Source: an uncultured Bacteroidota bacterium
GTDB lineage: Bacteria > Bacteroidota > Bacteroidia > JABEUT01
DNA: 64,000 bases
Reading direction: 5' to 3'
Assembly: GCA_903863935.1 (NCBI GenBank)
Contig: CAIPDV010000074.1
Span: 1-64,000, forward strand
Part shown: piece after piece, positions 25,761 through 47,112 of the stretch
Position numbering within the stretch: the first letter of the stretch is position 1
Layout: every line of letters begins with the position of its first letter
Made by a program: the position numbers and the translations under genes
Notes under the pieces: model-generated
The model's input: the letters and a program-made list of their open reading frames with translations, nothing else
Databases searched by the model: none
Told to the model about the DNA's origin: nothing

Positions 25761-25830
25761 CGTCATTGCGAAGTTTTGCGAAAGCAATCTTACCTGTTTA
25801 AAGAGATTGCTTCGTTCCTCGCAATGACGA
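25761..25830. repeat. CATTGCGAGG-type palindromic element between paaC and paaD
   Basis: Left half starts CGTCATTGCGAAG and ends AAGCAATCT. Right half (25803-25830) is its complement, ending CCTCGCAATGACG. The loop is about 12 nt. It is the same family as 39657-39770 and the nadE insertion. It sits in the only gap inside the paaCD pair and could act on the mRNA. Confidence 0.85.
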
Positions 25831-28235: not shown

Positions 28236-29579
28236 CTAGTATTCATAAATTATAACCATTCCATGTGCACCATTTCCCCCTTTGGTTGCAATAGCACTGG
28301 TTTGCTGAACTGCTACAGCACCACCTCCTCCGGCACCGGGAGATAAGGCATTAATTCCAGGATAGTTTACATTATCCCGGGTATATTGTTGCGGGCCACC
28401 ATTTCCATATATGGATGAACCACCTTCTCCTGCAAAAACCACATCCGATCCGGTTTGCGAAACAATGGCATTACCACCGTTAGCACCCGGCATATTAATT
28501 GTACCTCCACTGGCATATCCACCTTTACCACCTAATAAATTTACACTGGTTGAAGCTACCTGTGTCGATTTCCCGCCGGAACCGCCATTTGCCGTAAATG
28601 TAGAACCGGGCAAAGTTGTTACTACGGTTGTATTACCGCCTCCGCTTGCCACGCTGTTATTACATCCGGCTGCACCGGTACCTCCGGCACCAACTGTAAT
28701 AGTAATAGTTGTTGAACCTGTAACATTTTGCAAATAACCTTCGCAATAGCCACCGGCTCCGCCTCCGCTTCCGGCTTCATCGGTACTGTAGCATGAATTG
28801 CCAAGTCCTCCACCTGCTCCGCCTCCGCCAACAGCCTTCACCAATATCCAGGTAGTTCCTGCGGCAAGGGTTGGAGTTGAAACACCCGCTGTAGTGTCAT
28901 AAATTATACCTTTCAGTACGGTTGGCGGGGTTGTCCAGCTCATAGTACCCGCTGTAGTGCTTGCCAATAATTGTCCGTTTACGGACGGAGCTGCTGTAGG
29001 CAATGTAAGGTTATATGCAGCAGAAGTTGCTCCGGCTGAAATACCAATTGCGTTTGCACTTCCACTGTTGTAAAATTGTAATGTACCGGTAGAGGTACTT
29101 GCTGCACCCAATTGAAACAACCCTGTACCGGTAAACGACAAATTAAATCCGCCTGAGGTAATAGCTGTATTTGCTAATAAAGCACCTCCTAATTGAACAT
29201 TTGAACTGTTTAAAGTCAATCCATTATTTGCACCTGTAACGGTAGATGCACTTCCGGAAACTGCCACCCAAGCGGTTCCGCTCCAGTAGTAATATCCCAC
29301 TCCACTACCTACTGCGGCATTGGTATTATATACCATCATACCTTTATCACCTGTTGTAGCAGCATTTGCAATTGGCGGTTTGAATGATGACAGGGATGTT
29401 AAACTTACATTGGGTATGATCAACCCTAAGTTGTTCGAGTTTCCGGTGTTAAGATCTAAAATAGCATTAACACTGGGGATTGCACCTGTGGTGCTGATTC
29501 CTACATTTTGAGAGTTGGCTTGGTGACAGACCCCGATTCCAAATAATGTAATAATAGTTAGTACGCGTGTAGTTTTCAT
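28236..29579 (-). CDS. Secreted glycine-rich tail-fibre-like protein, one repeat unit
   Basis: 447 residues. Signal peptide MKTTRVLTIITLFGIGVCHQ is followed by ANSQNVGI. The N-terminal module (AILDLNTGN, LGLIIPNVSL, GMMVYNT, YYYWSGTAW) is the trimmed version of a module found in many Bacteroidota surface proteins. It is followed by one about 107-residue repeat (NNGLTLNSSNVQLGG to TMSW). The C-terminal 200 residues are more than a third glycine, ending GGNGAHGMVIIYEY. Comparable glycine-rich ends occur in phage tail-fibre receptor-binding tips, where glycine strands pack in polyglycine-II helices. No T9SS sorting domain. Function unknown; adhesion is a guess. Confidence 0.7.
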   Translation of the reverse strand: MKTTRVLTIITLFGIGVCHQANSQNVGISTTGAIPSVNAILDLNTGNSNNLGLIIPNVSLTSLSSFKPPIANAATTGDKGMMVYNTNAAVGSGVGYYYWSGTAWVAVSGSASTVTGANNGLTLNSSNVQLGGALLANTAITSGGFNLSFTGTGLFQLGAASTSTGTLQFYNSGSANAIGISAGATSAAYNLTLPTAAPSVNGQLLASTTAGTMSWTTPPTVLKGIIYDTTAGVSTPTLAAGTTWILVKAVGGGGAGGGLGNSCYSTDEAGSGGGAGGYCEGYLQNVTGSTTITITVGAGGTGAAGCNNSVASGGGNTTVVTTLPGSTFTANGGSGGKSTQVASTSVNLLGGKGGYASGGTINMPGANGGNAIVSQTGSDVVFAGEGGSSIYGNGGPQQYTRDNVNYPGINALSPGAGGGGAVAVQQTSAIATKGGNGAHGMVIIYEY

Positions 29580-29810
29580 TGCTTCCTTTAATTTTATGGT
29601 TTATAAATTCTTGTATTTGATATAATAAATAACGAGTTTATCATTCAATACAAAGACATTCTACTTTTTATAAATCAAATTGTTACGATTCTGATAAAAG
29701 TCATCTTTTACAGGTAAGATAGCTCAGTGAGCAAACTCACAATTAGCAAGGAGTTAAGCTTATCCGGAACTATTTATCTATGTAACGCAAGACATCACGC
29801 AAAACAAAAA

Positions 29811-29835
29811 AGCCGGGCTTTATCAGCTCCGGCTT
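29811..29835 (-). terminator. Terminator after the four-repeat glycine-rich gene
   Basis: AAGCCGG (29810-29816) pairs with CCGGCTT (29829-29835). On the minus strand a U-rich run (complement of 29802-29810) follows the hairpin. It ends the 29874-32201 transcript. Confidence 0.75.
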
Positions 29836-29873
29836 ACTATTGCTAGCTATTATAGAATAGCTTAAAAATATTT

Positions 29874-32201
29874 TTATTGGTATTCGTAAATAATAACAAG
29901 TCCATTCCCACCATTTCCACCTGAGGCAGCATCATTATTTACTGATTGGGCAACCACAGCTCCACCGCCACCAGCTCCCGGAGCAGTTGCTGATACTCCA
30001 TTTATTGCTAAATGATCACGTGTGTAAATCGAACTTCCGCCACTACCAAACGATGAATTGGCTCCGCAACCGGCAAAGTCACCATCGGTACCCGTTGTTG
30101 ATACACTGCACCATCCTCCGGTTGCTCCGGTAATGTTCAGATTACCTCCGGCAGCCGTTCCTCCTGCTCCACCGGTAAATGCACCGGCTACACCTGTTTC
30201 ATAGGATATTCCTCCTCCGCCTCCATTAGCTGTAAATACAGTATTTGGGCCAGTTACTGTTACTATTGTATTTCCACCATTTACTACACCGCAATTAGCA
30301 ACCCCTACACCTCCGGCCCCAATATTAATCTGGTAGGTAGAACCCGGACCTAAGCCGGAAACAAATCCTTCGCAATAACCACCTGCTCCACCACCGCTAC
30401 CGCAAATATTAGCTGCGGTACCACAACCGGCAGTGTGTTTTACACCTCCGCCAGCACCACCACCGCCCAATGCTCTAACTAATATAGATGTTGTTCCGGC
30501 AGCAAAACTTACAGTTCCGGTAGTACTGTTAACATAAATAATTCCAATTAGGATACCAGGGCCACCAGCAGGAATAGTTGCCCAGCTTAAGGTTCCGCCT
30601 ACTGAACTGGCAAGCACTTGGCCGTTAGATGCAGGTGGAGTAACAGGTAAGGATAATGTATAGGTAGTTGTTGTAGCAGCAGCTTTTAAACCAACCCCTA
30701 AAGCACTGGCTCCATTAAAGAAATCAAGCTCTCCTGTTGATGCGCTTGCAGCTCCTAATTGAAGTGCTCCGCCGCCGGTCAACCCTAAATTAAAACCTCC
30801 CGATAAAATATTTGTATTAGCAAGTAATGGATTGGCACCACCTAATTGTGTATTTCCACCAACAACTGTTAAACCGTTATTGGCAGACCCTCCACCTGCC
30901 GCAGCTGCCCAGCTAAGAACACCAGCACCATTATTTGTTAAAACAGTGTTTGCTGCACCTTGCGCTAAAGGTAATGTCAGTCCGTATGAAGTAGTAGTTG
31001 TTCCTGCTTTTATATCTACTGTATTAGCATTTGTAGCATTGTTAAACTCCATAGTACCTGTAGAAGCGGCCCCTACACCCAACTGGAATTTTCCGGTTCC
31101 TGCAATAGCAAGGTTAAATCCTGCATTGGTTATAGTTGTATTTCCTAATAAAGCATTTGCTCCACCCAATTGTACGTTTCCACCCACAACAGTTAACCCA
31201 TTGTTGGCAGTTGCTCCCGCAGGTGCAGTCCAGCTTAATGCGCCCGCACCATTGTTGGTAAGTACTGTATTAGCAGCACCTTGTGCCAGTGGCAAGGTCA
31301 TATTATAAGAATTGGTAGTATTACCCGCTGTAATTCCAACCTGATTTGCACTAGCATTGTTAAAAAAATCAAGTTCTCCTGTTGAAGTACTTGCTTGTCC
31401 TAACTGAAAATTTCCAGTTCCGGTGAAGGCAAGGTTAAATCCGCCTGAAATAATATTTGTATTGCCGAGTAAAGCATTTGCACCACCCAACTGCACATTA
31501 CCACCCACAACTGTTAAACCATTATTGGCTGTTGCTCCCGCAGCCGCAGCCCAACTTAATGCACCGGCACCATTATTGGTTAATACTGTATTTGCTGCAC
31601 CTTGAGCCAATGGAAGTGTTAATGCATATGAGTTTGTAGTTACTCCTGCAGATATTGATACGTTCCGGAAATTGCTGGAGTTTAAGAATTGCAACGTTCC
31701 GGTAGAGTTACTTGCCTGGCCTAACTGAAATATTCCTGTACCTGTAAAGGCAAGGTTATTACCTCCAGATATAATAGAAGTATTACCTAATAAAGGGTTT
31801 GCACCACCCAGTTCAACAAGGGTTCCGTTCATGGTTAAACCATTTTGTGCGCCTGTAACTCCGGCTGCACCACCTAAACTTACCCAGGTGGCACCATTCC
31901 AATAGTAGTATCCGATAGGTTGGTTAGCATTGCTGCTGTTATATACCAACATTCCCCGGTCACCAAAAGTAGCGGCGTTGGCAATTGGCGGGTTAAAAGT
32001 TGCCAGTGAAGCACCAAGGGTTACGTTAGGAACTATAAGCCCCAGATTACGACCTGCGTTTCCTGTATTTAAATCTAATATGGCATTTACACTTGGAATT
32101 GACCCTGAAGTATTAATACCGACATTCTGGGAATAAGCCATGTTACACAGGCTAAACCCTAAAAATGTTACAACTGTAAGTAGCGTATTTTTTTTCCTCA
32201 T
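29874..32201 (-). CDS. Secreted glycine-rich protein with four tandem repeats
   Basis: 775 residues, paralog of the 28236 product. Signal peptide MRKKNTLLTVVTFLGFSLC. N-terminal module AILDLNTGNAGRNLGLIVPN and YYYWNGATW. Four tandem repeats of about 107 residues (roughly 130-555) follow. Each runs NNGLT(V)xGGNVQLGGAN, LLGNTxI, GGFNLAFTGTGxFQLG, TSY-LTLPLAQGAANTVL, NNGAGALSWAA. The second and third differ at few positions. The C-terminus is glycine-rich (GGGGAGG, AGGVGVANCG) and ends GGNGLVIIYEYQ like its neighbour. No sorting domain. The DNA repeats are about 321 bp long and similar enough to recombine. It is probably a surface or secreted fibre-like protein. Confidence 0.72.
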   Translation of the reverse strand: MRKKNTLLTVVTFLGFSLCNMAYSQNVGINTSGSIPSVNAILDLNTGNAGRNLGLIVPNVTLGASLATFNPPIANAATFGDRGMLVYNSSNANQPIGYYYWNGATWVSLGGAAGVTGAQNGLTMNGTLVELGGANPLLGNTSIISGGNNLAFTGTGIFQLGQASNSTGTLQFLNSSNFRNVSISAGVTTNSYALTLPLAQGAANTVLTNNGAGALSWAAAAGATANNGLTVVGGNVQLGGANALLGNTNIISGGFNLAFTGTGNFQLGQASTSTGELDFFNNASANQVGITAGNTTNSYNMTLPLAQGAANTVLTNNGAGALSWTAPAGATANNGLTVVGGNVQLGGANALLGNTTITNAGFNLAIAGTGKFQLGVGAASTGTMEFNNATNANTVDIKAGTTTTSYGLTLPLAQGAANTVLTNNGAGVLSWAAAAGGGSANNGLTVVGGNTQLGGANPLLANTNILSGGFNLGLTGGGALQLGAASASTGELDFFNGASALGVGLKAAATTTTYTLSLPVTPPASNGQVLASSVGGTLSWATIPAGGPGILIGIIYVNSTTGTVSFAAGTTSILVRALGGGGAGGGVKHTAGCGTAANICGSGGGAGGYCEGFVSGLGPGSTYQINIGAGGVGVANCGVVNGGNTIVTVTGPNTVFTANGGGGGISYETGVAGAFTGGAGGTAAGGNLNITGATGGWCSVSTTGTDGDFAGCGANSSFGSGGSSIYTRDHLAINGVSATAPGAGGGGAVVAQSVNNDAASGGNGGNGLVIIYEYQ
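30830..32080 (-). repeat. Four direct repeats of about 321 bp in the fibre-like gene
   Basis: Corresponding GGTGGTGC-type landmarks recur at about 30835, 31159, 31480 and 31801, roughly 321-324 bp apart. They code for the 107-residue repeats of the 29874 product. The ends are approximate. Confidence 0.75.
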
Positions 32202-32241
32202 CTTAAATATTTAGGGTATAGTATTCAGTGATATCCGGCAA

Positions 32242-32249
32242 CAAACATA
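32242..32249 (-). promoter_or_regulatory. -7 box TATGTTTG for the four-repeat gene
   Basis: Forty nt upstream of ATG 32201. Confidence 0.45.
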
Positions 32250-32431
32250 GTGCTAAAAGTCACACTTCACGTTAAATTTATGATGTTTTACTATTAAGAA
32301 CTAATTAAAGTTACGTTTATTGTTCTAATAAATGACATTTGTCATGTTTTTCCATGCAAGTCCCTGCAAAAAATCACCATGAAACAGCCCAATAATGGCT
32401 TAAAAGGATATAAAAAATAGCTGATTAAAGA

Positions 32432-34084
32432 TCAGTATACAATGGTTATACTACCATTACCTGCGTGATTATTATTGGTGATAGTAACGCCTGTCGCACT
32501 TGGATCAGTGTATGAAGATCCGCCACCACCACCGCCTGCACAACCACCGCTGCCGCCATAATAACCTGCACCGCCGCCGCCGCCACCGCCATAAAAACAA
32601 GTAGTATTAGCAGTTGAGGCTGTAGTCATTCCACCATTACCACCAAGCCCTAAAGCTCCTGCTGTTCCGGTTATTCCGGTAGGCGAACACCCTCCCGGAC
32701 TATAAAGTACTGCTGCGCCGCCAGCTATTGCAGTTCCTCCGAGGCCACGTTCCGCAACCGGACTGGCAGTGCCAATAAGGCCCACATTTCCGCCACCGCC
32801 ACCATTTTCATTGGCATTATCTTCACGGCCTGCACCACCCCCGCCGGCGGCTACAAATATTCTGTTTGCCAAAGCAGTTCCACCCATGCGTATGCTGGAT
32901 GCAGCACCGCCACCACCACCTGCACCCCAGGTGGTGGTAACAGAACCGTACCCATTACCGCCTGACTCATCTCCGGCATTTCCACCTGCGCCGCCTATTC
33001 CGGCTACTGAAGCAGATGAAGCATTTGTTCCCTGGGCCCCCACATATAAATCCAGTAAAGTGCCCGGAACAACAGCATAAGTTGCTACAATTTTAGCTCC
33101 CTTCCCTCCGGTTCCACCCACCGCAGTGCGGTACCCTTTTCCTCCGCGGGCTCCATACATGGTTATTGATATGGATGAAATGCCGCAAGGCACAACCCAT
33201 GAATAGTGGCCCGGAACGGTTTCCGTTAATGTTCCGTGATTTACGGTTGTTGTAACAATTAAAGTGGTTTTAGGGGAACTAATACCACATGCATTACTAT
33301 CATATACACTTATGGTATAGGTTGCGGCTGTTGAGCCAAAATCAACTGAAATGGAGTTTGAACCCTGTCCGGAAGTACAAATAGTTCCTGCAACCAATGG
33401 CAATATTGACCAGGTGTATGATAATGCGCCTGCAACTACCGGCACTGAATAATTATTGCCTGTTGCACACACTTGTAAAGCGGTTGGGCCTGTTATCGGG
33501 GTTGCGCTTGTTAATAAAGGACTGATTGTAATATTTAAAGTAGCAGCACTGGTTCCGCAATTGTTTGAAGTGATAAGGCTGATAGTTCCAGAATTTGCTC
33601 CCCATGTTACAGTAATGGTGGCAGTTCCTTGCCCTGCTGTAATTGTTGCCCCTGCCGGAACGGTCCAAACATACGATGTTGGTGGAGACCCTGAAACAAG
33701 TGAAGCCGTGTAAATTTGCGAACTTCCCTGGCAAGGGGTTGCATTTCCCGTAATAGACATAACAGGAGCTCCAAGACAAGTACAGTGCAGGATTTGCCAT
33801 GCAGCCCCGGTGTAAAAATAAAAACACAGATCGGTTGTACTGTATACCAATAAAGATGTTGCAGGTGCCGCAATTGCCAACATTTCGGCATGTGTCATCC
33901 GTGGAATAAGAAAACCTTTATTTGTTGAAGATATATCAAGCAAGGCTGAGGAATTTGGCAAGGCTCCGGTATTGTTAATAGCAACATTCTGCCCATTCAA
34001 AACACCTGACGAAATATAAATAAGAAGCAGTAAAAAAATAAATTTTACTTTATTTATTAACCGTATTATTTTATTCTGAATCAT
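32432..34084 (-). CDS. Secreted PKD plus ALK/LTK-like glycine-rich domain protein
   Basis: 550 residues, last gene of a three-gene operon. A hydrophobic export signal (KFIFLLLLIYISSGVLN) precedes GQNVAI. The N-terminal module (LLDISSTNKGFLIPRMTHAE, LLVYSTTDLCFYFYTG) is followed by two PKD-like domains (YVWTVPAGATITAGQGTATI; YTWSILPLVAG), then a glycine-rich domain. That domain contains VPCGISSISITMYGARGG, GGGGAASSIRMGG, VAAGGGGAGRED and GYYGGSGGCAGGGGGGSSYTD, the layout of Pfam's ALK/LTK glycine-rich family (PF12810), and ends GSITIVY. There is no T9SS domain. ATG 34084 is preferred because the longer frame begins at TTG 34123. Confidence 0.7.
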   Translation of the reverse strand: MIQNKIIRLINKVKFIFLLLLIYISSGVLNGQNVAINNTGALPNSSALLDISSTNKGFLIPRMTHAEMLAIAAPATSLLVYSTTDLCFYFYTGAAWQILHCTCLGAPVMSITGNATPCQGSSQIYTASLVSGSPPTSYVWTVPAGATITAGQGTATITVTWGANSGTISLITSNNCGTSAATLNITISPLLTSATPITGPTALQVCATGNNYSVPVVAGALSYTWSILPLVAGTICTSGQGSNSISVDFGSTAATYTISVYDSNACGISSPKTTLIVTTTVNHGTLTETVPGHYSWVVPCGISSISITMYGARGGKGYRTAVGGTGGKGAKIVATYAVVPGTLLDLYVGAQGTNASSASVAGIGGAGGNAGDESGGNGYGSVTTTWGAGGGGGAASSIRMGGTALANRIFVAAGGGGAGREDNANENGGGGGNVGLIGTASPVAERGLGGTAIAGGAAVLYSPGGCSPTGITGTAGALGLGGNGGMTTASTANTTCFYGGGGGGGAGYYGGSGGCAGGGGGGSSYTDPSATGVTITNNNHAGNGSITIVY

Positions 34085-34116
34085 CCTATTATATACTAAT
34101 CTTATTTTTTCTGTAG

Positions 34117-35505
34117 TTACCAATTAATAATAACCTTTCCATTTCCGGCCCATGCTCCTTGCGTATTGGTAGTAACTGTAGTAAGCCCACCGGTATAATT
34201 GCTTCCGCCGCCGCCGCCGCAATTATATCCAGCACCGCCGCCATAATATCCGCCGCCGCCGCCGCCTGCATTTTTAGCAGTAGCGCAGCCACTTCCGCCA
34301 ATACCTAAAACACCGCTTCCGGCAGTACATGTGCCTACTCCACCGGTACCACCACTGCCACCTGTTCCGCCACCGCCGCTTCCTGCACCACCTTGAATGT
34401 TATTGGCAAATCCGGCACCGGCAATGGCTGCACCGCCTGGCCCTCCTTTTTCATAGTTTCCTGTAGTATGAAGACATCCGCCACCGCCGCCGCCACCTGC
34501 AACAACCACGCGGTTAGCAAGCGCAATTCCACCCACCCTAACATCGGATGCTCCACCTCCACCGGCACCACTGAATGATGAGTGGATATAAAACCCATTT
34601 CCTCCTCCATTATAACCACCCTGTCCGGGGATAGCCATAACACCATAAAATCCTTGTCCGCCAACATAAATATTTAAAACGGTTCCGCCAACAACAGTAA
34701 GTGTTCCTACAACGGAACCTCCGTTGCCTCCTCCATCTAAAACAGGATTATTGTGATATCCACCTGTGCCACCCTGGGCTCCGTCGGCGGTAATAGTAAC
34801 TATTGTAACACAAGGCGGAACTGTCCATGACTGTAATCCATCGGTATAATTGAATGTAAGTGTACCATGCTGAAGTGAAATAGTTAAAGCCAGTGTATCA
34901 TTGGGACTGGCTCCACAATTATTGGTTGCGGAAACACTGATATTACCCGGGTTTGCACCTATGGTAACAGTTATAGATGTTGTACCTTGTCCGGCAGTTA
35001 TTACTGACCCCGCAGGCACTCCCCATGAATAGGAAGAAGCATTCGCAACGGCTGCAATTGAATAAACCAAACTCGAACCCTGGCACACCACCTGCAAGCC
35101 GGTTATAAGTCCCGGAGTTGCCGGAGCTGAAGCACAGGCGCAATACAAAGGCTGCCATGCAGCAAGAGGAGGCCCGGTATAATAATAAATGCAATTGTTA
35201 TCTGTATTAAAAATCATCAGTGATGTATCGGGAGTTGCAATTGCGTTCATCTGCACGGTTGTCATCCGTGGGATCAATAATCCACGGGTGGTAGAACTAA
35301 GGTCAAGTAAGGCCGACCCATTTGGTAATGCCCCTGTGCTGTCAATACAAATACCTTGCGAATAGCTCATATTGTCAAAGCATAGTAAAAACACAATTAC
35401 GCAAATAAATTTAGAAACTGTTTTCCATATAAAATCAATAGAATCCCACTTCGCGGCGCAAAGTTTTTCCATTTTTATTGATTTTATACTTCTGTTCATT
35501 ACCAT
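34117..35505 (-). CDS. Secreted PKD plus ALK/LTK-like glycine-rich domain protein
   Basis: 462 residues, middle gene of the operon. An internal signal (FICVIVFLLCFDNMSYS) precedes QGICIDSTG. N-terminal module LLDLSSTTRGLLIPRMTTVQ and SLMIFNTDNNCIYYYTG. One PKD-like domain (SYSWGVPAGSVITAGQGTTS). The glycine-rich domain has VPPCVTIVTITADGAQGGTG, GGGGASDVRVGGIALANRVV, AGGGGGGGCLHTTGN and GGGGGYYGGGAGYNCGGGGG, ending GKVIINW. Two starts are possible, ATG 35505 or ATG 35499; the latter forms a TAATG overlap with the upstream stop, so translation is coupled. Confidence 0.72.
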   Translation of the reverse strand: MVMNRSIKSIKMEKLCAAKWDSIDFIWKTVSKFICVIVFLLCFDNMSYSQGICIDSTGALPNGSALLDLSSTTRGLLIPRMTTVQMNAIATPDTSLMIFNTDNNCIYYYTGPPLAAWQPLYCACASAPATPGLITGLQVVCQGSSLVYSIAAVANASSYSWGVPAGSVITAGQGTTSITVTIGANPGNISVSATNNCGASPNDTLALTISLQHGTLTFNYTDGLQSWTVPPCVTIVTITADGAQGGTGGYHNNPVLDGGGNGGSVVGTLTVVGGTVLNIYVGGQGFYGVMAIPGQGGYNGGGNGFYIHSSFSGAGGGGASDVRVGGIALANRVVVAGGGGGGGCLHTTGNYEKGGPGGAAIAGAGFANNIQGGAGSGGGGTGGSGGTGGVGTCTAGSGVLGIGGSGCATAKNAGGGGGGYYGGGAGYNCGGGGGSNYTGGLTTVTTNTQGAWAGNGKVIINW

Positions 35506-36947
35506 GTTATTGTTGCTGTTCCATTACCCGTATTTGAACCTGCCGTCACTGAAATAGTTGTTACACCCGGTCCACCGGTATAAGAATAGCCACCACCTCC
35601 ACCACCGCCGCAACCGCCACTTCCGCCATAGTAGCCACCGCCACCACCGCCACCGCCGCCCCATTCACACGTTATTTTCGACATCCCCCCATTGCCTCCA
35701 TTGCCGAATCCTCCGGCAGTGCTGGCAAACGCATTAGGGGTGCAGGCACCTGTATTTAATACTACTGAGGCTCCCCCAGCTGCAATCGTTCCGGCATTTC
35801 CTCTTTCATTCACATTACGTCCTGCTCCATTGGTTGCCGGTTGTCCGCCATCGCCACCAACTCCATAGGTGTTACCATATAATTCAGTATTATAATCGGC
35901 ACCTCCACCACCGCCGCCACCGGCCACTATCACACGGTTCTGCACATCCGTTCCGCCAACACGGATACTTGAAGCACCACCACCACCACCGCCGGCACCC
36001 CATCCGGGCAGATTATACCATGGCGTATTATTGGTGTCGCCATATCCGGCTCCTCCGCCTTCATCATTATTAAAACCACCAATACCTCCGGCACCGCCAT
36101 CGCAACTGGAAGTTGATATGGCACCTTTCTGGCCTAAATAAATATTCAATATTTCAGCAGGATTCACTGTTAAAGTCGCATTTACCAAAGCTCCCTTACC
36201 ACCTGCTGCTGCCTGCGAAAAAGCATAGGCAGCATTTCCGCCTGCCCCTGTAATGGCAATTGTTACCGAGGATATACAAGCCGGCACTGTCCAGGTTTGC
36301 AATCCACCGGTATATGCAAATGATATGGTGCCATGCGAACCATTGGTGAGATTGACAGGCAAAATGCGAACCCCACTGCTGCCACAACTATTGGATGCAA
36401 TTACGGTTACATTACCTGAGGTACTTCCCCAGGTAACGGTTATAGAAGTTGTGCCCTGACCTGCCGTTATAGTTGCCCCAAAAGGCACAGTCCAGTTATA
36501 AAGTGATGCTCCGGCAACAGCAGCAATGGTGTATGTTATTCCGGCAGAACAGGCTAAGGGTGCAGGATTGCTGGGAGTAATGGCTCCCGGTGTAGCAGGT
36601 ACTCCATTACATACACAGGATATTTGCAGCCAGGCCGCGCCAATATAAATTTCGAAGCAATTAGTAGTGGTATTATAAATGATGAGTGATTGAGCCGGAG
36701 CATGAATGGCATTCATTTGTGCGGTTGACATACGCGGAACAAGAAATCCTTTGCTATCCGACTTTACATCAAGAATAGAAGAAGGATCGGGTGCAACTCC
36801 AGTAGTACTAATACCTATACCACCTTGTCCGAAAACATTAACAGCAGCTAACAAGAATAAAAAAACGCATAAATGCGACCTTAAGCTATTACATGCTTTT
36901 AGTATTCTCTGAAGGGGAAAATAAGGGTGGTAATTTTTTATAATCAT
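35499..36947 (-). CDS. Secreted PKD plus ALK/LTK-like glycine-rich domain protein
   Basis: 482 residues, first gene of the operon. A hydrophobic segment (CVFLFLLAAVNVFG) precedes QGGIGISTTG. N-terminal module ILDVKSDSKGFLVPRMSTAQ and LIIYNTTTNCFEIYIG. One PKD-like domain (YNWTVPFGATITAGQGTTS, SNSCGSSG). The glycine-rich domain has VPACISSVTIAITGAGGN, GGGGASSIRVGGTDVQNRVI, AGGGGGGGADYNTELYG, and GYYGGSGGCGGGGGGGYSYT, ending GTATITW. The N-terminus before the signal is unusually long and basic, so an internal start may be used. Surface or extracellular location is expected; partner unknown. Confidence 0.72.
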   Translation of the reverse strand: MIIKNYHPYFPLQRILKACNSLRSHLCVFLFLLAAVNVFGQGGIGISTTGVAPDPSSILDVKSDSKGFLVPRMSTAQMNAIHAPAQSLIIYNTTTNCFEIYIGAAWLQISCVCNGVPATPGAITPSNPAPLACSAGITYTIAAVAGASLYNWTVPFGATITAGQGTTSITVTWGSTSGNVTVIASNSCGSSGVRILPVNLTNGSHGTISFAYTGGLQTWTVPACISSVTIAITGAGGNAAYAFSQAAAGGKGALVNATLTVNPAEILNIYLGQKGAISTSSCDGGAGGIGGFNNDEGGGAGYGDTNNTPWYNLPGWGAGGGGGGASSIRVGGTDVQNRVIVAGGGGGGGADYNTELYGNTYGVGGDGGQPATNGAGRNVNERGNAGTIAAGGASVVLNTGACTPNAFASTAGGFGNGGNGGMSKITCEWGGGGGGGGGYYGGSGGCGGGGGGGYSYTGGPGVTTISVTAGSNTGNGTATITW

Positions 36948-37139
36948 TTATACCAAACCTTTAATCTTTGAACATTAAGGCAATTATAGCTATAAAATTG
37001 TTATGTGGTTAAAAAACAGGTTAAACTAGCACAAAAATGTCGTTTTTCAAATCCCGAAACTGACCTATATCATGAAATGGCCTTAAAATTTAAATTTAGG
37101 TTCACCTTCCGGTTTGCCACAGATATAAGTTCGATTTAT

Positions 37140-37962: not shown

Positions 37963-38022
37963 CCCCAAACCCCTGAAGGGGTTTTAAATAGCACTATTCA
38001 AAGCCCTTTCAGAGGATTGGGG
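37963..38022. repeat. CCCCAAACCCCT-type palindromic element after comA
   Basis: Left half starts CCCCAAACCCCTGAAGGGG. Right half ends AGAGGATTGGGG. It is a drifted copy of the 60-bp element that lies in frame in nadE (46741-46800), sharing the TTTAAATAG...TCAAAGCC centre. It starts 11 nt after the comA stop. Confidence 0.85.
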
Positions 38023-39656: not shown

Positions 39657-39770
39657 CGTCATTGCGAGGCTTTACGAAGCAATCTCTCCCCAATTGCGGC
39701 ATCCGAATTTTATGAGATTGCCCGCCCGGATGAACCGTTCGGACGGGCTTCGCAATGCCTCGCAATGACG
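39657..39770. repeat. Compound CATTGCGAGG-type palindromic element after gltX
   Basis: Starts CGTCATTGCGAGGCTTTACG and ends CCTCGCAATGACG. Between them lies a nested hairpin, GCCCGCCCGGATGAACCG then TTCGGACGGGC. At 114 bp it is longer than the 25.8 kb copy. It ends 8 nt before the gltX stop and may serve as a 3' end for both convergent transcripts. Confidence 0.85.
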
Positions 39771-45221: not shown

Positions 45222-45245
45222 CACCCCTACCCCTAAAGGGATTTT
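45222..45245. repeat. Half copy of the CCCC-type palindrome before nadE
   Basis: CACCCCTACCCCTAAAGGG then ATTTTAAG corresponds to the left half of the 46741-46800 element. It ends just before the nadE start codon. Confidence 0.55.
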
Positions 45246-45249
45246 AAGA

Positions 45250-47112
45250 ATGAAAATAGCACTTATACAACTTAATTATACAGTTGGCAATATTGAAGGG
45301 AATGTTGCCAAAATAAAAAATGGTATTAAGCTGGCAAAGGCTAAAGGTGCAGATCTGGCTGTGTTTGCAGAGTTGGCAATATGTGGTTATCCGCCTAAAG
45401 ATTTACTTCTTCAAGATGGGTTTGTCGAAAAGTGCGAAAAAGCCGCCGCTAACATAGCAAAGGATTGTAAGGGCATTGCTGCCATTATTGGCGGGCCCTC
45501 CAAAAACAAGGCCAAGAGCGGCAGACAAGTTTTCAACTCAGCATTTTTTATGGCGGATGGAAAAGTGAAGACAATTATTCACAAAACGCTTTTGCCGTTC
45601 TACGATGTATTTGATGAATATCGTTACTTTGAGCCCGCTAAAGAAAATAAATTTATTACCTATAAGGGAACAAAAATTGGTATTACAATCTGTGAAGACA
45701 TTTGGAACCAATTACCTGATAAAACGGGCCACTGTACCCACAACCGTTTTCCGCTGAAGGAAATGAATGCAGGAAAAACGGATTGCATAATCAACATCTC
45801 TGCTTCGCCGTTTTCCTACACCCATTGGGAAGAGAGGCGCAGAGTGGCTTGCGCCGTTGCTAAAGATTTTAACACCCCGTTATTCTATGTGAATAATATA
45901 GGAACCAACACCGATTTAACCTTCGATGGTGATTCCTTCGTCGTGGATAAAAAGGGAAATGTTATTACCGAGCTTGCCCGATTTGAAGAAGACTTACAGG
46001 TGTTTGATCTGGAGAAAAAGAAAGTTACTTGTACTGACAGAGATTGCTTCGTTCCTCGCAATGACGGTAGGAGCCCGACTGGCATTAATCCGTCATTGCG
46101 AGGCTCTGCGAAGCAATCTCTGTCCCACGTTGCCATTAATAGGGAGCGATTTGTTCCTCACAATAACGTATGGTATTCATCCAAGTCCAACGACGAAAGA
46201 AGAATAACCGAGTCTGTTTATAAAGCACTGGTAATGGGCATTCACGACTTCTTTCACAAAAGCAATATTAAAAAAGCAGTACTGGGCTTAAGTGGTGGAA
46301 TAGACTCTGCTCTTGTGTTGGTTCTGGCAATTGCAGCCCTTGGTAAGGAGAATGTAACCTGTGTTATACTACCCTCCAAATTCACCTCCGACGAAACGAT
46401 GAAGGATGCTATGCAGCTTCTTAAAAACACAGGTGTTGCATGTGAAAACATATCTATTGAGGGTGGAGTAAAAGCCATGAATGAGGCCTTGGCTGATACT
46501 TTTAAGGGATTAAAACCTGACATTACGGAAGAGAACATACAGGCGCGTTTGCGAGGATTACTTATTATGGCGGTAGCCAATAAAACCGGGGCTTTAATGC
46601 TGAATACATCCAACAAAAGTGAATTGGCAACAGGCTACGGAACACTTTACGGGGATATGGGCGGAGCACTTGCTGTTATTGGTGATCTGTATAAAACCCA
46701 AGTCTTCCGCCTAGCTGAATATGTGAATGAAATAACTACCCCCCAAACCCCTAAAGGGGCTTTAAATAGTGCCACTCAAAGCCCCTTTAGGGGTTTGGGG
46801 CAATACCCGGACGGTATTATTCCAAAAAACATACTTACTAAGCCACCAACCGCTGAACTGAAGCCTAATCAAAAGGATTCTGACAGCCTGCCTGAGTACG
46901 AAATACTTGATAAAATACTTATTCAATATATTGAGGAGCACAAATCAGTTGATAAAATAAAACTGAAAGGCGCAGATAAAAAACTAATTCACAGGGTTGT
47001 GAGCCTTATAAATAAAGCTGAATTCAAACGTCATCAGTTTGCACCAATTCTGCGTATATCCCCAAAAGCTTTTGGCATAGGCCGAAGGATGCCAATCGTT
47101 GGTAAATTATAG
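45250..47112 (+). CDS. nadE: Glutamine-dependent NAD+ synthetase with two repeat-derived inserts
   Basis: 620 residues. Makes NAD+ from deamido-NAD+, with glutamine-derived ammonia. The N-terminal nitrilase-fold glutaminase has ELAICGYPPKD (Glu), LLPFYDVFDEYRYF (Lys region) and TICEDIW with nucleophile Cys148. The C-terminal synthetase has PP-loop GLSGGIDSAL (residues 348-353 carry SGGIDS) and NTSNKSELATGYGTLYGDMGG. Relatives of this short type are usually near 540-580 residues. The excess comes from two in-frame palindromic repeats. Residues 262-308 lie in the linker between domains. Residues 498-517 lie just before the KPPTAELKPNQKDSDSLP block. The catalytic residues are intact, so the enzyme is probably active. 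Confidence 0.95.
   Translation: MKIALIQLNYTVGNIEGNVAKIKNGIKLAKAKGADLAVFAELAICGYPPKDLLLQDGFVEKCEKAAANIAKDCKGIAAIIGGPSKNKAKSGRQVFNSAFFMADGKVKTIIHKTLLPFYDVFDEYRYFEPAKENKFITYKGTKIGITICEDIWNQLPDKTGHCTHNRFPLKEMNAGKTDCIINISASPFSYTHWEERRRVACAVAKDFNTPLFYVNNIGTNTDLTFDGDSFVVDKKGNVITELARFEEDLQVFDLEKKKVTCTDRDCFVPRNDGRSPTGINPSLRGSAKQSLSHVAINRERFVPHNNVWYSSKSNDERRITESVYKALVMGIHDFFHKSNIKKAVLGLSGGIDSALVLVLAIAALGKENVTCVILPSKFTSDETMKDAMQLLKNTGVACENISIEGGVKAMNEALADTFKGLKPDITEENIQARLRGLLIMAVANKTGALMLNTSNKSELATGYGTLYGDMGGALAVIGDLYKTQVFRLAEYVNEITTPQTPKGALNSATQSPFRGLGQYPDGIIPKNILTKPPTAELKPNQKDSDSLPEYEILDKILIQYIEEHKSVDKIKLKGADKKLIHRVVSLINKAEFKRHQFAPILRISPKAFGIGRRMPIVGKL
46035..46173. repeat. CATTGCGAGG-type palindromic cluster inside nadE
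   Basis: Half-elements at 46035-46066 and 46090-46124 are near-perfect complements (CCGTCATTGCGAGG and GAAGCAATCTCTGTC cores). A third, drifted half (46142-46173) repeats GCGATTTGTTCCTCACAATA. The whole cluster stays open and is translated as TDRDCFVPRNDG, SLRGSAKQSLS and RERFVPHNN, each related to the others. Confidence 0.85.
46741..46800. repeat. 60-bp CCCCAAACCCCT palindrome inside nadE
   Basis: Exactly 60 bp. Left side CCCCAAACCCCTAAAGGGG, right side CCCCTTTAGGGGTTTGGGG, centre TTTAAATAG/CACTCAAAG. Sixty bases are 20 codons, so the frame is preserved. The same element, drifted, follows comA at 37963-38022. Confidence 0.92.

Follow-up and report, generated by a model that had tools for sequence, protein, structure and literature searches.

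Palindromic repeats of two unrelated families in the reading frame of a Bacteroidota NAD+ synthetase gene

The nadE gene of an uncultured Bacteroidota bacterium contains, within its reading frame, DNA that recurs between genes of the same genome. The locus raises the question of whether these segments are inserted repeats tolerated by the enzyme, ordinary extensions of the protein, selected elements or products of faulty assembly. The analysis covered a stretch of 64,000 nucleotides (the window), the genome to which it belongs and a set of relatives. It is very probable that nadE has received two unrelated, non-autonomous palindrome insertions, with the frame kept, and that both are tolerated as translated loops resembling those of Rickettsia palindromic elements (RPE). 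This reading is based on the observed repeat families, their positions, the intact frames, the presence and absence in relatives and the lack of a second intact copy of the checked hosts; its limits are that the assemblies are MAGs, that the length of the linker carrying element A varies among close relatives and that the borders of this insertion are imprecise.

The nadE gene and its two inserts

The features of the window that are relevant to this question are listed below.

45250 to 47112, plus strand: nadE, glutamine-dependent NAD+ synthetase of 620 aa, host of both inserts, intact ORF
46039 to 46066, minus strand: first half-copy of element A, giving RDCFVPRND in the NadE protein, 100% identity to 25802-25829
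46091 to 46121, plus strand: second half-copy of element A, giving PSLRGSAKQSL in the NadE protein, 94% identity to 39657-39687
46141 to 46168, minus strand: third half-copy of element A, degenerate, within NRERFVPHNNV, agreeing with the first at 21 of 28 positions, a score reached by none of 20,000 shuffles
46741 to 46800, no strand: element B, coding for PQTPKGALNSATQSPFRGLG in NadE, 23-bp arms 100% complementary
45223 to 45241, plus strand: degenerate half of element B directly upstream of the nadE start, pattern match with at most four mismatches
25761 to 25829, no strand: element A, intergenic, two halves tail to tail, pattern matches
39657 to 39770, no strand: element A, two halves tail to tail, directly 3' of gltX, pattern matches
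37963 to 38022, no strand: element B, intergenic

NadE reaches 630 bits against NCBIfam PRK13981 (cut-off 479), and its best full-length matches in the PDB are glutamine-dependent NAD+ synthetases. An earlier note on this DNA had described three half-elements lying in frame between two domains with intact catalytic residues, and this description proved correct. All three half-copies of the CGTCATTGCGAGG...GAAGCAATCTC repeat, termed element A, are read in frame, and the ORF is intact over all 620 codons. E41, K112 and C148, the glutaminase triad, are invariant in the alignment, as are S348-G350, D352 and S353, that is, most of the SGGIDS motif, the ATP-binding loop of this enzyme family. The tblastn search with NadE revealed a single nadE in the genome, so the gene is not a pseudogene accompanied by a working copy elsewhere. 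Element B, which the earlier note had missed, is the stronger case.

Element A is located at the hinge, in the linker leading from the glutaminase domain to the synthetase domain, and element B in a loop of the synthetase domain preceding the conserved IPxNIxxKPPSAEL segment. In the AlphaFold2 model (45-sequence alignment, mean pLDDT 84), pLDDT is below 50 for most of residues 269-312 (A) and for residues 502-510 (B), and near or above 90 for most of the core blocks. Both inserts would form disordered loops in such a structure, and the fold and catalytic residues are expected to remain intact. Judging from the open frame, NadE is most likely translated with both inserts, which would probably be neutral for the enzyme.

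Sites matching CATTGCGAGG with up to one mismatch occur 10 times in the window versus 2.8 expected, a count reached in none of 100 shuffles. The genome contains 56 exact half-elements of the form CATTGCGAGG-N0-20-GAAGCAATC, and the reversed-pattern control gave none. Five of the six frames of an A half are open. Exact half-elements of A are present in 25 of the 395 genomes of a phylum sample, and its sequence was found in no relevant paper of the open-access literature searched. One genome of the same class (G050, complete, a single contig of 3.9 Mb) has 386 exact CGTCATTGCGAGG..GAAGCAATC half-elements and is a better system than the present MAG for the study of element A.

Element B is unrelated to element A. 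It is a near-perfect 60-bp palindrome with sharp ends and the consensus CCCCAAACCCCTAAAGGGGCTTTGAATAGYRCTATTCAAAGCCCCTTTAGGGGTTTGGGG. Its frames 1 and 2 contain stops, while frame 0 is stop-free and reads PQTPKGALNSAIQSPFRGLG; as the element is a palindrome, essentially the same peptide (PQTPKGALNSAxQSPFRGLG) results from either orientation. In 22 copies aligned with their flanks, the termini are CCCC/GGGG, the flanking sequences are unique and no target-site duplication is visible by eye; the length is divisible by three in 20 of the 22 full copies, the intergenic ones included. The exact B half-site is found in one of the 395 genomes of the phylum sample, namely the present one, and, when up to three mismatches are allowed, in 8 of the 10 genomes of its genus. 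Known RNA families gave only sub-threshold matches to the repeats, and the only paper found for a B-like string in the open-access literature searched concerns an unrelated E. coli promoter.

Copies in other genes and in related genomes

The earlier note had suggested looking for in-gene, in-frame copies elsewhere in the genome, and these were indeed found, in aroC for element A and in six genes for element B. The catalogue, drawn from 60 genome stretches surrounding pattern matches, comprises 46 clusters of A and 44 of B; it will lack the more degenerate copies, and gene boundaries follow ORFs and family matches, not a gene caller. Genes with an internal in-frame copy of element B are nadE, cysS, mtaB, a tandem ABC ATPase gene and two glycosyltransferase-like genes, one for a PMT-like membrane protein and one for a glycosyltransferase; bshC has half a B in frame. 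Those with element A are nadE and aroC. In the tblastn search, the peptide of NadE residues 496-520 also matched long open frames on other contigs of this genome, which drew attention to element B. NadE, MtaB, CysS, BshC and AroC score above the cut-offs of NCBIfam equivalogs across the insert, and no second intact copy of nadE, cysS, aroC or mtaB was found in the genome. Copies of element B also occur close to the beginning of GldB and of a PA0069-type radical SAM protein, two proteins whose start codons are uncertain.

Six of 17 B copies of about 60 bp are situated in genes; for the clusters of A the figure is 2 of about 46 (Fisher test, p ~0.004, the copies not being independent). The use of the single open frame by all internal B copies is expected from purifying selection and does not in itself indicate a benefit. 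Adaptation of element B to in-gene life, as a selfish repeat selected for being a harmless protein insertion, is rather unlikely; it is weakly suggested by the in-gene share of B, a length that is a multiple of three, a single open frame identical both ways and a constant Pro/Gly/Gln-rich disordered peptide.

Several minor observations were made at these and other loci. The bshC gene (L222:12832-14571) has a further in-frame repeat region, RVDPTPLVKQGVNPTPLVKQGVNPTPLVDPRV, which looks like an additional insertion, and the neighbouring rimO terminates in a half-B (PQTPKGA). At the end of one contig lies a cysS-like fragment (G000:C21:8663-8875; 64% identity over 67 residues, four TAA stops), either a pseudogene remnant or part of a foreign contig. 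Apparent N-terminal A insertions upstream of ORFs on contigs C62, C83, C121 and C60 were rejected, being probably 5' intergenic copies with a readable frame. Positions 28250-36950 of the window are a low-complexity, glycine-rich coding region in which direct repeats are spaced by ~321 bp (29085-31810); it is unrelated to the palindromes.

A gap of 40-50 residues at positions 262-308 of NadE had been anticipated in relatives. Among 29 aligned relatives this linker is short in nearly all, but it is longer (~15-30 aa) in the three closest. The closest of them (G005) has an in-frame half-element of its own in the nadE linker, CTTCATTGCGAGCAAAGCGAAACAATCTTA, which agrees with a GCGAGCGAAGCGAAGC-type variant at 25 of 30 positions, a score that none of 500 shuffles attained. 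Owing to the longer linkers and to this CGTC-type half-element, the gap opposite the A insert is clear, yet not perfectly sharp. The half-element of G005 implies that the site was hit before the split, or hit twice, and the A insertion at the linker may predate the species. In a nadE of another family (L048, genome G056), a palindrome of yet another kind, CCCTCCCCAAAGGGGAGGG, is present in the linker and reads LTLPKGEG. The interdomain linker of nadE looks like a recurrent landing site.

The B insert of nadE is missing in 29 of the 29 aligned relatives, which have a clean 24-residue gap and pass from an EYVNE-like straight to a GLIP-like stretch. The cysS insert is absent in seven same-genus relatives. 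The B insert of the ABC ATPase is common to G005, where the first half is intact and the second decayed, and to G002, where it is more decayed; the half-B of bshC is common to G002. The A insert of aroC is in frame also in G005 and G007 and absent in G006, G001 and G008, and its loop type differs by exactly three bases between the present genome and G005. The latter has an in-frame B copy of its own, inside a methyltransferase-like ORF. On comparison of these sequences, the inserts are of several ages, some being common to sister species and others private.

These data allow the alternative explanations to be weighed. If the linker and loop were ordinary lineage-specific protein extensions, their likeness to intergenic repeats would be due to chance or convergence. 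The varying length of the nadE linker in close relatives is in line with this, but such an origin is extremely improbable in view of the match of A to high-copy repeats (28-31 bp of DNA at 100% and 94% identity), of the 16 copies in which the 60-bp palindrome B recurs and of the same peptide in unrelated proteins, and it is refuted by the repeats at the DNA level. It is likewise highly improbable that nadE and the other hosts are pseudogenes or artefacts into which repeats were stitched by metagenome assembly. The assembly is fragmented (126 contigs) and repeats are where assemblies err; nevertheless, all the listed genes have intact frames, and the hosts keep their invariant residues and lack a second intact copy. 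Moreover, the independently assembled G005 and G002 have common inserts (aroC, ABC ATPase, bshC), each with its own decay, which makes both assembly artefacts and pseudogenes less plausible.

Some in-gene copies (aroC, ABC ATPase) are retained in several species and very stable hairpins are predicted within the mRNA (-53 kcal/mol for the B consensus and -52 kcal/mol for the first two A halves of nadE), as would be the case if coding-region hairpins were selected for regulating translation or mRNA stability, or if the inserts altered the enzyme. Such a function is quite unlikely: the host genes are functionally unrelated, the inserts vary between close relatives and decay where common (ABC ATPase in G005 and G002), and both NadE inserts are located in low-confidence loops. 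The insertion of two tolerated, non-autonomous palindromes in nadE is thus the preferred explanation.

Relation to known palindromic repeats

In a review (PMC2229807), the RPE of Ogata et al. (2000, 2002) are given as in-frame palindromes in conserved Rickettsia genes. According to this review, an RPE-bearing guanylate kinase (gmk) is translated and active, with a changed substrate affinity (PMC2229807), and represents the nearest experimental precedent for a translated insert. The GTAG- and CGTC-tagged REPs also form in-frame in-gene units in several phyla, including double insertions and clusters coding for 43-82 residues (PMC3733652).

The inserts described here resemble RPE as high-copy palindromes that lie in frame in conserved protein genes and are mostly tolerated (A in nadE and aroC; B in nadE, cysS, mtaB, the ABC ATPase and others). 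The differences relate to (i) the host, a Bacteroidota bacterium whose nearest named relatives are Bacteroidetes MAGs, instead of Rickettsia; (ii) size, classical RPEs having 105-146 bp and element B 60 bp, with a single stop-free frame common to both orientations; (iii) the presence of two unrelated families in one gene. The likeness to RPE proposed in the earlier note is supported in the mode of insertion. CGTC-type repeats are already on record in Bacteroidetes, and RPE-4 and RPE-6 belong to the CGTC-tagged superfamily (PMC3733652), which makes the host phylum less surprising than had been thought.

Element A is similar to the CGTC-tagged REPs in its CGTC-ATT start and AAT end, in its occurrence as singles and dimers, in Bacteroidetes and other phyla, in its intragenic in-frame units and in having no adjacent transposase gene. 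Its stem opens with the CGTC tag and a subsequent AT: of 131 CGTCATTGCGAGG-like sites (up to two mismatches; control, 36 sites), 66 are exact. The CGTC-tagged REPs have a stem of 8-9 bp and a loop of 4-5 nt (PMC3733652, Table 1), whereas an A half (RNAfold, -5.8 kcal/mol) has five contiguous stem pairs (ATTGC/GCAAT) followed by mismatches. Its tail is CTC instead of CCA, and its pairs are more often tail-to-tail (A+A-, ~22) than A-A+ (~9), in contrast to the CGTC families, which are mainly head-to-head and rarely tail-to-tail. As it departs from the CGTC families in stem length and dimer orientation, two of the features tested, element A is regarded as CGTC-like rather than as a proven member. 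A terminal GTAG or CGTC tag is absent from element B, which in this respect differs from both groups of tagged REPs.

The RPE/REP-type phenomenon is already known, whereas the B family, a 60-bp family without a description in the open-access literature searched, and the presence of two families in one essential enzyme appear to be new. The Rickettsia-style protein-coding palindrome is met here in Bacteroidota MAGs and not in an obligate intracellular alphaproteobacterium. The set of orthologues with and without inserts in one Bacteroidota genus (cysS, nadE, mtaB, aroC and the ABC ATPase) also appears to be new, and such pairs make it possible to test the neutrality of an insert for the host enzyme and the movement of elements without a transposase of their own. 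In annotation, the peptides SLRGSAKQS, RHCEERSNL and PQTPKGAL should be taken as marks of repeat DNA.

Spread of the elements and the Y1 transposases

Elements A and B would be non-autonomous palindromic repeats spreading through the genome, whose in-gene copies would survive only in a tolerant loop and a stop-free frame, and would then be inherited and decay. As in REP/RAYT systems, in which an IS200-like Y1 transposase is associated with its REPs, high-copy palindromes occur in a genome with Y1_Tnp proteins, seven in number, and other palindromes flank several of the Y1_Tnp genes; unlike in such systems, A and B flank none of them. Matches to B are absent from all seven Y1_Tnp loci and A from the flanks covered for six; near the Y1_Tnp gene on contig C121, two diverged A half-sites lie ~0.8-1.5 kb off without bordering it. 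A dedicated RAYT/Y1 transposase for A or B was thus rejected, none of the seven genes being bordered by either element. The CGTC repeats are likewise without a dedicated transposase according to Di Nocera et al. (PMC3733652). The likeliest route, considered here only tentatively, would be the movement of A and B in trans, by hairpin-recognising single-strand transposition through a Y1-type enzyme.

The palindromes CCACGACCTAAAGGTCGTGG, GCTCC..GGAGC and CCCTTCGGG were noted near the Y1_Tnp genes L237 (contig C46), L236 (C121) and L233 (C49), with which they probably form REP/transposase units. The first of them has a core, CCTAAAGG, in common with element B. In four clusters (C66:9062-9188, C80:101754-101867, C107:3060-3172 and C49:15857-15948), A halves are located directly beside or between B arms, and these composites look as if one palindrome had served as the target for another.
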